Shown here: positions 30,479 to 63,130 of the stretch, piece by piece
How positions within the stretch are numbered: the first letter of the stretch is position 1
Layout of the letters: the number at the start of each line of letters is the position of its first letter
Origin: Oligosphaera ethanolica
GTDB lineage: Bacteria > Verrucomicrobiota > Lentisphaeria > Oligosphaerales > Oligosphaeraceae
Direction of reading: 5' to 3'
DNA length: 64,000 nucleotides
Assembly (NCBI RefSeq): GCF_030814695.1
Contig: NZ_JAUSVL010000001.1
Coordinates: 4,314,227 to 4,378,226 of the forward strand
Made by a program: the position numbers and the translations under genes
Notes under the pieces: generated by a model
What the model saw: the letters and a program-made list of their open reading frames with translations, nothing else
What the model was told of the DNA's origin: nothing
The model's database searches: none

Positions 30479-31387
30479 ATGTCAGTTCTGGAAAGCATTC
30501 AGTCCATCACCTTCGGCACCGAGCTTGAATACACCGGTATCACGCGGCGTGCGGCCGCCATAGCCATCTTCAACGTCCTTGGCGGCAATGTGCGCCACGT
30601 TGGCGGCGCCTACGATACTTGGACGGTGTTCGCTCCGGACGGCCGCGAATGGAATGTGGTCAGCGATGCCAGCCTGGGCGATCGTGGCAACAGCGCCGAA
30701 GTCGTCACGCCGATTCTCCGGTATGCTGACATGGCGACCCTGCAGAACGTCGTGCGCGCGCTCCGCAAGGCTGGCGCGCAGACCCCGGCGTGCACCAGCC
30801 AGCACGTGCACATCGGCGTCGTCGACTGGGCACCCCGGCAGATAGCCAATCTCGCGCGCATTTATTACAAGCAGGAGGCGCTCATCCTTCGGGCGGTCGG
30901 CACCCTGCAGGAGCGCTTGGAACGCTACACGAGGCCGGTCGACCGCGAGTTTATCGCCCGTCTCGAGGCCATGAAACCCACCACGCGTGAGGAGCTTAAC
31001 GTCGCCTGGTTCGGCTACGCGAATCCGTCGCCGACGCACTACGACAGCCATCGCTACCGTGGGCTCAATCTGAACAACGTGTGGCGGACCGGCACCGTAG
31101 AATTCCGCGTGTTCAATGGCACGAGCCACGCGGGCGTCGTCAGAACGAACATTCTGTTCTGCTTGACTCTGGCCGCCATGGCTCTTTCGGCCAAGTGCGC
31201 CAGCTCGAAGGCACCGCGCGAATACTCGGCCGCCAGCGCGCGCTACGACATGCGCGTGTTCCTGCTCCGCCTCGGGTGGATCGGTGCGGAATTTAAAAAC
31301 CCCAGAATGCACCTTCTGGGGAATCTTCCGGGTAGCGCGGCCTGGAAAAACGGCCGGCGGGACGCGGTACCTGGCCAGGTGGGCTAA
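30479..31387 (+). CDS. Amidoligase (COOH-NH2 ligase) family protein, 302 aa
   Basis: Matches the putative amidoligase family (Amidoligase_2; glutamine synthetase/glutamate-cysteine ligase-like fold). Family features: TFGTELEYTG (residues ~11-20, acidic nucleotide/metal site), QHVHIG near 108, YYKQEALILRAVG near 140, and LNLNNVWRTGTVEFRVFNGT near 197-216. The family forms amide bonds between a carboxylate and an amine, often modifying peptides or lipids; the substrate here is unknown. GGGGA precedes the ATG. First gene of the rightward accessory region, directly followed by two T-arm-like hairpins. Confidence 0.85.
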   Translation: MSVLESIQSITFGTELEYTGITRRAAAIAIFNVLGGNVRHVGGAYDTWTVFAPDGREWNVVSDASLGDRGNSAEVVTPILRYADMATLQNVVRALRKAGAQTPACTSQHVHIGVVDWAPRQIANLARIYYKQEALILRAVGTLQERLERYTRPVDREFIARLEAMKPTTREELNVAWFGYANPSPTHYDSHRYRGLNLNNVWRTGTVEFRVFNGTSHAGVVRTNILFCLTLAAMALSAKCASSKAPREYSAASARYDMRVFLLRLGWIGAEFKNPRMHLLGNLPGSAAWKNGRRDAVPGQVG

Positions 31388-31398
31388 ATTATCGCACG

Positions 31399-31451
31399 AG
31401 AGGCGGGAGTCGAACCCGCCTCTTATAGTGGGGGCGGGATTTGAACCCGCC
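31399..31451 (-). ncRNA. Two tandem tRNA T-arm-like hairpins
   Basis: On the minus strand a hairpin GGCGGG-TTCAAAT-CCCGCC (31,451-31,433) is followed 9 nt later by AGAGGCGGG-TTCGACT-CCCGCCTCT (31,423-31,399). Both loops are 7 nt and fit the T-loop consensus TTCRANT. No D-arm, anticodon arm or matching acceptor strand is visible, so these are not complete tRNAs. They may be tRNA 3'-end remnants, T-arm mimics, or a hairpin pair ending the amidoligase transcript. Confidence 0.5.
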
Positions 31452-31550
31452 TCGAGCACCATGTGGGTTGCGTGTTCTTTTGCTGCAAAAACTGAATTTT
31501 ACATGGTTGTTTACGGCGTGCAATAGCATTTATCTGAAAGGCGGTGCTAG

Positions 31551-51084: not shown

Positions 51085-51134
51085 GCTGACTCTTAATCAG
51101 TTGGTCGACGGTTCGAATCCGCCCGAGGGCACCA
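51085..51134 (+). tRNA. tRNA-Lys(CUU) 3' half at the attR junction
   Basis: Visible parts: anticodon stem GCTGA/TCAGT with loop CTCTTAA (anticodon CTT, 51,092-51,094), a 5-nt variable loop, T-arm GACGG-TTCGAAT-CCGCC (one A:C mismatch), acceptor strand CGAGGGC, discriminator A and encoded CCA (51,132-51,134). The sequence to the left (…tctaaagaat) cannot form a D-arm or the matching acceptor strand, so only the 3' half is here. This is the usual result of phage integration into a tRNA; the full gene should be at attL. Confidence 0.85.
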
Positions 51135-51142
51135 TCTTCCTA

Positions 51143-56433: not shown

Positions 56434-57183
56434 ATGCGGGAATACCACGCCATCACAGCAGCGGCCGCGAGCCGTCCGCAGGCATTGCGCCGACATTTCA
56501 CCATGGTCGAATTGATGGTGGTCATCGTGATTGTCAGCATTATCTTGGCCTTTTCGGTGCCGGCTTTCCAGAAGCTGGCCGTAGGCAGCGGCGTGGACGC
56601 CGCCGCCCGCATGCTGTCCTCACAACTCAGCCTCGCTCGCGCCGAAGCAATCTCAAGACGCCAATGCATCGCCGTCATCATGCCGGGGCAGCATTTCAAC
56701 AAAGACACCGCCGACGAGAATCTCTACAGGTACCAGAGCTTCCGCGCGGCAAAAGTCAATTTCAACGGCACTACCTACACTTTCGAAGATTGGGTCGAAG
56801 GCACCGAATGGTCTTTCCTCCCCACCGGCACGGTCATCGCCGAGGCGGATGATGACCGTAGTGAGTTAACGACCGCTGATCCCCCCGCTCCTGCCGGCAC
56901 CAGCTGGTCAATCGGCGATGGAACCTTCACAAGGGTGGTCGACGGTAGTGGCACAGCAAAAATGGACTTGGATGCAGACAATCCAACTTCCCCTCCAGAT
57001 CCTCCACAATTCACTGGCGTCCGCGCAGTCATCTTCAAACCCAACGGGCGTTGCGTGCAAAGAACCTACGTGACCATCCTGGAGGGCGCGGCGCCCGAGG
57101 GCACCATCCTCCGCGAAAACAAATTCAACATCCGCGTCATGGAAATCAACGCCTTCACCGGCCAGATCCGCTACCTCTTCTAA
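56434..57183 (+). CDS. gspH: Pseudopilin, GspH-like, 249 aa
   Basis: Class III leader followed by FTMVELMVVIVIVSIILAFSVPAFQKL (Glu at +5), then the GspH/FimT pattern SSQLSLARAEAISRRQCIAVIM. The residue before the cleavage Phe is His, not Gly. The C-terminal part has a beta-rich domain with FKPNGRCVQRTYVTI. Minor pseudopilin of a type II secretion-like or pilus system. It starts the operon after the repeat array. Confidence 0.8.
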   Translation: MREYHAITAAAASRPQALRRHFTMVELMVVIVIVSIILAFSVPAFQKLAVGSGVDAAARMLSSQLSLARAEAISRRQCIAVIMPGQHFNKDTADENLYRYQSFRAAKVNFNGTTYTFEDWVEGTEWSFLPTGTVIAEADDDRSELTTADPPAPAGTSWSIGDGTFTRVVDGSGTAKMDLDADNPTSPPDPPQFTGVRAVIFKPNGRCVQRTYVTILEGAAPEGTILRENKFNIRVMEINAFTGQIRYLF

Positions 57184-62811: not shown

Positions 62812-63130
62812 CCAAAGGCGCGCCCTAAGATAGCCCAGGGCAAGCGCCCGCAGGGCGCGTCGCCCTGGGTAAGGCCCCGACCAGAAATGAGCCCTGAAGG
62901 GGCGACCTAAAAGACAGCGCGGAACGCGCAAGGAACAAGACAGGGAAGGCGTTCTACCAGGTCCCATTGCCCCTTTGGCGCCAGTCAGCTTCGCCGACTG
63001 GCACCAAAGAGGCCGAGGAACACGGGCCTTGGTGGGGGCGCTACCCAGGGCGGCGCGCGCTTTCAGCGCTGCTTGCCCTGGGCTGGTATGTTTCGCGCTT
63101 TCAGCGCTGCTGCCGCTTTGCGGCGCCGCT
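62812..63130. repeat. Intergenic repeat with 'gccctggg/cccagggc' palindromes
   Basis: The stretch has paired cccagggc...gccctggg (62,834-62,870), ccctgaaggggcgacc, and 'tttcagcgctgcttgccctggg' (63,061) and 'tttcgcgctttcagcgctgctgccgctttg' elements. It resembles the widespread noncoding repeat family of PVC/Bacteroidota-type genomes that translates to arbitrary short frames. Confidence 0.6.

Follow-up and report, generated by a model that had tools for sequence, protein, structure and literature searches.

The window, by which we mean the whole 64,000-nt stretch analysed here, lies in a genome that consists of a single 5.73-Mb contig. Its left part is a prophage with an integrase gene at 130-1209, a gene for a repressor-like S24 peptidase, and minor tail, portal and terminase genes that read leftward. 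A tRNA-Lys(CTT) gene ends just before base 1, and its 3' part is repeated at the far prophage end (Table 1). The prophage is thus bracketed by the tRNA-Lys ends (window 1 and 51138), which places the amidoligase region in mid-prophage. Outside the prophage, 15 nt at 57092-57106 also match the 3' end of tRNA-Lys, but this match has only a short extension and looks like chance. An Acido-Lenti-1 RNA scored above the Rfam gathering score at 63044-63108, which would fit a host of Lentisphaerae type. No close phage relatives were found: the best terminase was 55% identical among genomes and 49% among viral contigs, and a megablast against phages gave no match to the prophage.

Table 1. Features of the amidoligase spacer and of the prophage end (positions are those of the window).
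Feature	Position	Strand	Details
Amidoligase gene, 302 aa, Amidoligase_2 family	30479-31387	+	Pfam PF12224 and PHROG 2443
24-nt tRNA-Leu(TAG)-type 3' piece	31396-31419	-	T-arm and acceptor 3' strand, without CCA
Hairpin A	31399-31423		9-bp stem AGAGGCGGG/CCCGCCTCT, 7-nt loop; minus-strand loop TTCGACT
TAGTGGGG	31426-31433	+	Collinear with the tRNA-Leu(GAG) anticodon stem/variable arm, same sense
Hairpin B	31433-31451		6-bp stem GGCGGG/CCCGCC, loop 31439-31445; minus-strand loop TTCAAAT
Exact tRNA-Leu(GAG) 3'-end copy, 21 nt	31446-31466	+	T-stem strand, acceptor strand, CCA, 5-nt flank
Operon partner, 86 aa	31551-31811	+	Conserved behind related amidoligases
attR-like copy of the tRNA-Lys(CTT) 3' part, far prophage end	51085-51138	+	54-nt repeat

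The amidoligase product matches the Amidoligase_2 profile with 168.7 bits against a cut-off of 22 (2.6e-49) and PHROG 2443 at 1.5e-71. This confirms the first-pass annotation, which had described an amidoligase gene followed within 12 nt of its stop by two tandem hairpins; hairpin A begins 11 bases past the stop. Hairpins A and B form a direct repeat of 21 nt with a spacing of 31, and their 7-nt minus-strand loops, which had been likened to the T-loop consensus, both fit TTCRANY. The 86-aa product encoded behind them matched nothing in PHROG, and in Pfam nothing above the cut-off. Its homologues include those of the related loci L106 and L117, and the longer homologue of L117 ends in DUF5049.

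Strict T-arms were defined as a perfect 5-bp stem with a TTCRANY loop. Three occur in the window, compared with a mean of 0.165 in 200 dinucleotide shuffles, and a close pair (at most 100 nt apart on one strand) was seen in none of the 200. The rest of a tRNA is lacking, as had been noted earlier: ARAGORN called no genes and no Rfam tRNA reached the gathering score. No other Rfam family reached its gathering score at the hairpins either, the best sub-threshold match being tRNA-Sec with 19 bits against 47. ARAGORN and Rfam, the latter at gathering and permissive thresholds, yielded nothing credible as a hidden or split tRNA, a tmRNA or a viral tRNA-like structure.

A comparison of the spacer with the host genome and the host tRNA genes returned tRNA-Leu genes as the best matches. 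Against five host tRNA-Leu loci, the longest match reaches 21 nt, compared with at most 13 nt in shuffles (n = 200) and at most 12 nt for other segments of the window (n = 390). The host-genome comparison added two weak matches, with E values of 0.135 (at another tRNA) and 0.876. A genome repeat family was rejected: besides the element itself, every hit of the pattern was a tRNA-Leu gene or the single tRNA-Leu(TAG) att copy. GC-rich hairpins that resemble T-arms by coincidence might be expected from the GGCGGG-like hairpins found at the same spot in related operons, which make such stems unsurprising there. This is the least probable of all the readings weighed here and was rejected on the shuffle statistics and the lengths of the tRNA matches, foremost the exact 21-nt match that includes CCA and continues into the DNA flanking one host tRNA gene. 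Both hairpins are real and not products of chance.

The left piece is exact in one genome of the same genus (G001) and 96% identical, with one mismatch, to host tRNA-Leu(TAG); the loop of hairpin A also matches host tRNA-Leu(CAA) over 20 nt. The right piece, the 21-nt copy, is present in two of the 59 genomes searched, namely the genome itself and another of the same genus (G002), and on the minus strand 31450-31433 equals the tRNA-Leu(GAG) T-arm exactly over 18 nt. Judged by these matches of 21, 18 and 24 nt, which lie beyond chance, the spacer holds relics of tRNA-Leu genes. The earlier suggestion of tRNA 3'-end relics thereby gains its sources, tRNA-Leu(GAG) and a TAG-type tRNA-Leu, through the very search of the host genome for tRNAs with the same 3' ends that had been proposed with it. 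Because the five bases past CCA are tRNA-flank DNA, the source was a gene or a precursor and not a mature tRNA. Among the genomes searched, the 21-nt match including these bases is confined to the genus, which suggests capture within the genus.

The two hairpins differ in orientation. Both had been taken for antisense T-arms, which holds for hairpin A on the minus strand. The right flank of hairpin B is in tRNA-Leu sense on the plus strand, and its T-loop is inverted relative to that flank. On the plus strand TAGTGGGG, GCGGG and CCCGCCTCGAGCACCATGTGG follow the order of the tRNA-Leu(GAG) gene, with 10 nt missing between TAGTGGGG and GCGGG; the reversal is confined to the seven bases of the loop. 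An 8-mer match of the TAGTGGGG type was obtained with 283 of 20,000 random 25-mers, and this part taken alone is weak, suggestive evidence of a tRNA-Leu(GAG) origin. The simplest account of hairpin B would be a sense piece of tRNA-Leu(GAG) whose T-loop was inverted between its stems.

The main rival to be considered is a relic attachment site, at which an element integrating into tRNA-Leu once recombined and left tRNA 3' ends behind. A tRNA-Leu-targeting element does exist in the same chromosome (G000:C1:3854397-3861790, L123). It measures about 7.3 kb, lies at tRNA-Leu(TAG) and encodes a tyrosine recombinase together with a primase/AAA protein; its duplicated tRNA 3' part is identical over 44 + 18 nt with one T-loop base different. 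The fragments in the spacer, like att cores, span T-arm to acceptor end. However, they derive from two different tRNA-Leu genes and stand back to back in a stretch of about 70 bp, one of them lacks 10 nt and has its loop reversed, no integrase gene adjoins them, and they are flanked by a conserved gene pair in a prophage that ends at tRNA-Lys. The host tRNA-Leu genes themselves are located elsewhere in the chromosome, and with the boundary at tRNA-Lys the spacer does not qualify as an attachment site. A small element, since lost, may have been at the spacer, and we regard the relic attachment site as unlikely overall. It is also conceivable, at very long odds, that the tRNA-Leu pieces are kept as DNA, serving the integrase of the 7.3-kb element as a landing place or decoy, so that this satellite could be linked to the phage or diverted. 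If this were true, the T-loop inversion of hairpin B would be a recombinase product and not the result of replication slippage.

The setting of the hairpins was compared across 31 related amidoligase loci (L090-L120) from genomes and viral contigs, 25 of which have a readable 3' end, and across six phage records opened out of 58 that match the amidoligase. In 10 of the 25 loci the amidoligase is followed downstream by a gene homologous to that of the 86-aa partner. A stem without mismatches, 6 bp or longer and with five or more G-C pairs, lies no more than 60 nt from the amidoligase stop in 12 of the 25 (L090, L091, L092, L093, L096, L100, L101, L102, L104, L106, L113 and L120), among them eight of the ten with the partner gene. 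The other 13 fail this strict definition, and two of them (L112 and L117) have the partner. The hairpins of the relatives, with loops such as GAAA, are unrelated in sequence. No T-arm was found within 400 nt behind the stop in any of 31 scored relatives (25 loci and the six phage records), as opposed to the window. Of the 197 class genomes only this one has the tandem T-arm pattern, and no viral contig shows it. These counts do not point to a conserved structured RNA.

Since the gene pair is common to relatives and the tRNA pieces are not, amidoligase and partner were paired before the pieces arrived, and hence the pieces are not the borders of an amidoligase cassette. The earlier idea of an old integration boundary for such a cassette is not supported: the relics sit inside the conserved two-gene pair, and the prophage boundary is the tRNA-Lys repeat. 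The spacer measures 163 nt here versus roughly 15-62 nt in several relatives, so that more than a swap of hairpins must have happened.

Some amidoligase loci do lie beside complete tRNA genes. In the partial locus L095, which was left out of the T-arm scoring, the amidoligase is cut short at residue 104 and is faced by a complete tRNA-Pro gene located behind it. The amidoligases that lie beside a tRNA gene in L097 and L098 represent a subtype farther removed (47% identical), and their neighbours differ. Owing to the truncation of the one and the distance of the other two, they do not explain the spacer in the window, and all three were rejected as support for a cassette with a tRNA boundary. 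Two further amidoligases of a more distant subtype were observed. In L127 (9102-12163) the gene lies about 630 nt behind tRNA-Thr and is directly followed by a putative class II glutamine-amidotransferase-like ORF (MCGQCG start), with a resolvase-like ORF also present; in L128 it occupies a similar place behind tRNA-Asn.

Separately, long amidoligase-partner spacers of 358-428 nt occur in four relatives (L090:2383-2810, L091:1500-1143, L100:3889-4297 and L104:1494-1070). Each contains one or two copies of a conserved hairpin motif, GACTTGACTNG....GCAAGTC. They have a predicted fold in which a few pairs (7 of 57, in four sequences) show compensatory changes, and no Rfam match. The motif is absent from the window.

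The spacer folds better than shuffles on both strands, with z = -4.32 for the plus strand and z = -3.45 for the minus strand, where an 8-bp helix closes a cloverleaf-like fold. The flanking genes read rightward. Their mRNA carries the loops AGTCGAA and ATTTGAA, which are not T-loops, and is therefore not expected to be a T-arm mimic; as T-loops exist on the minus strand only, a mimic needs leftward transcription. A minus-strand T-arm-like RNA that acts as a tRNA-enzyme decoy or processing signal, as proposed in the first-pass annotation, would agree with the two TTCRANY loops and with the minus-strand fold. Yet the plus strand folds still better, the loop of hairpin B contradicts the orientation of its own flank, no homologue was found among the 31 relatives or the 197 class genomes, Rfam gave no tRNA-like match at threshold, and a promoter scan, subject to the proviso that host promoters may differ, showed no minus-strand promoter-like site near 31.5 kb (31550). 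We hold this reading to be very improbable. Hardly any weight is given to an mRNA tail antisense to tRNA-Leu that would sequester leucine tRNAs: the plus-strand T-arm segments are indeed complementary to tRNA-Leu 3' parts, but being self-complementary they would rather fold, and they are not conserved in the 197 class genomes or the 31 scored relatives.

A plain terminator pair was the remaining earlier suggestion. Neither hairpin is followed by a T-run, and an intrinsic terminator scan was blank at 31399-31451 on both strands. Nearly half of the readable relatives do, however, have a hairpin at this same position. The most economical role for hairpins A and B would be that of an intercistronic stem-loop.

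Taken together, we consider it probable, with some reserve, that hairpins A and B stem from two host tRNA-Leu genes, parts of which were captured between the amidoligase and its 86-aa partner, and that they act there as an intercistronic stem-loop. The established parts of this account are the sequence origin, the site inside a conserved gene pair, the uniqueness of the pieces and the unrelated GC-rich hairpin of many relatives. The T-stem GGCGGG/CCCGCC resembles stems of some relatives (L091, L101), which makes recombination with tRNA-Leu genes via short homology plausible; by this route the T-stems would have recombined into, or replaced, a resident hairpin. Such a replacement is an inference, as no close phage relative shows the state before capture. 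The loop of hairpin B would have flipped later, through a small inversion of the kind promoted by hairpin stems; PMC2903610, which treats hairpin-associated minute inversions, has Kelchner and Wendel 1996 among its references. On the amidoligase mRNA the hairpins would then serve as an intercistronic stem-loop only, for 3'-end protection or gene spacing, and not as T-arm mimics.

The locus offers a clear case of host tRNA-gene DNA inside a prophage operon without a recognisable attachment site, in which the source genes, their orientation and the loop inversion can all be read. The hairpins look like captured scraps with a routine structural job and not like a new kind of RNA, and they warn that orphan T-arms in phage genomes are not necessarily RNA mimics. 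A wider point that can be tested is that a hairpin slot is retained in amidoligase operons while its sequence may vary freely. Searches of one open library listed no paper whose title or opening abstract lines describe tRNA-Leu fragments behind a phage amidoligase.

Several known systems resemble parts of this arrangement. Intercistronic stem-loops occur in phage and bacterial mRNAs as GC-rich hairpins that lie between a stop and the following gene and lack a T-run. The hairpins described here are likewise GC-rich, directly past a stop and free of a T-run, but differ in being tRNA-derived and doubled. Phage amidoligase/gamma-glutamyl cyclotransferase loci likewise combine an Amidoligase_2 gene of a phage with conserved small genes beside it; a cyclotransferase is annotated near the amidoligase in four of the six opened phage records, two of which are without annotation, whereas the neighbour here is the 86-aa protein. 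With attR-type tRNA 3' fragments, as exemplified within this prophage by the tRNA-Lys copy, the locus has in common that a 3' piece of a host tRNA gene lies within mobile DNA or at its end. Unlike these, it has two different tRNA-Leu pieces with their 5' sides together, in mid-prophage between paired genes, and no adjoining integrase. Finally, small inversions in hairpins have been described for chloroplast spacers, and in that account (PMC2903610) a loop is likewise inverted between intact inverted-repeat stems. By comparison, the present example has a stem of 5-6 bp and a loop of 7 bp, is found in a captured tRNA piece within a prophage, and has an ancestral orientation that is known from the host tRNA gene.
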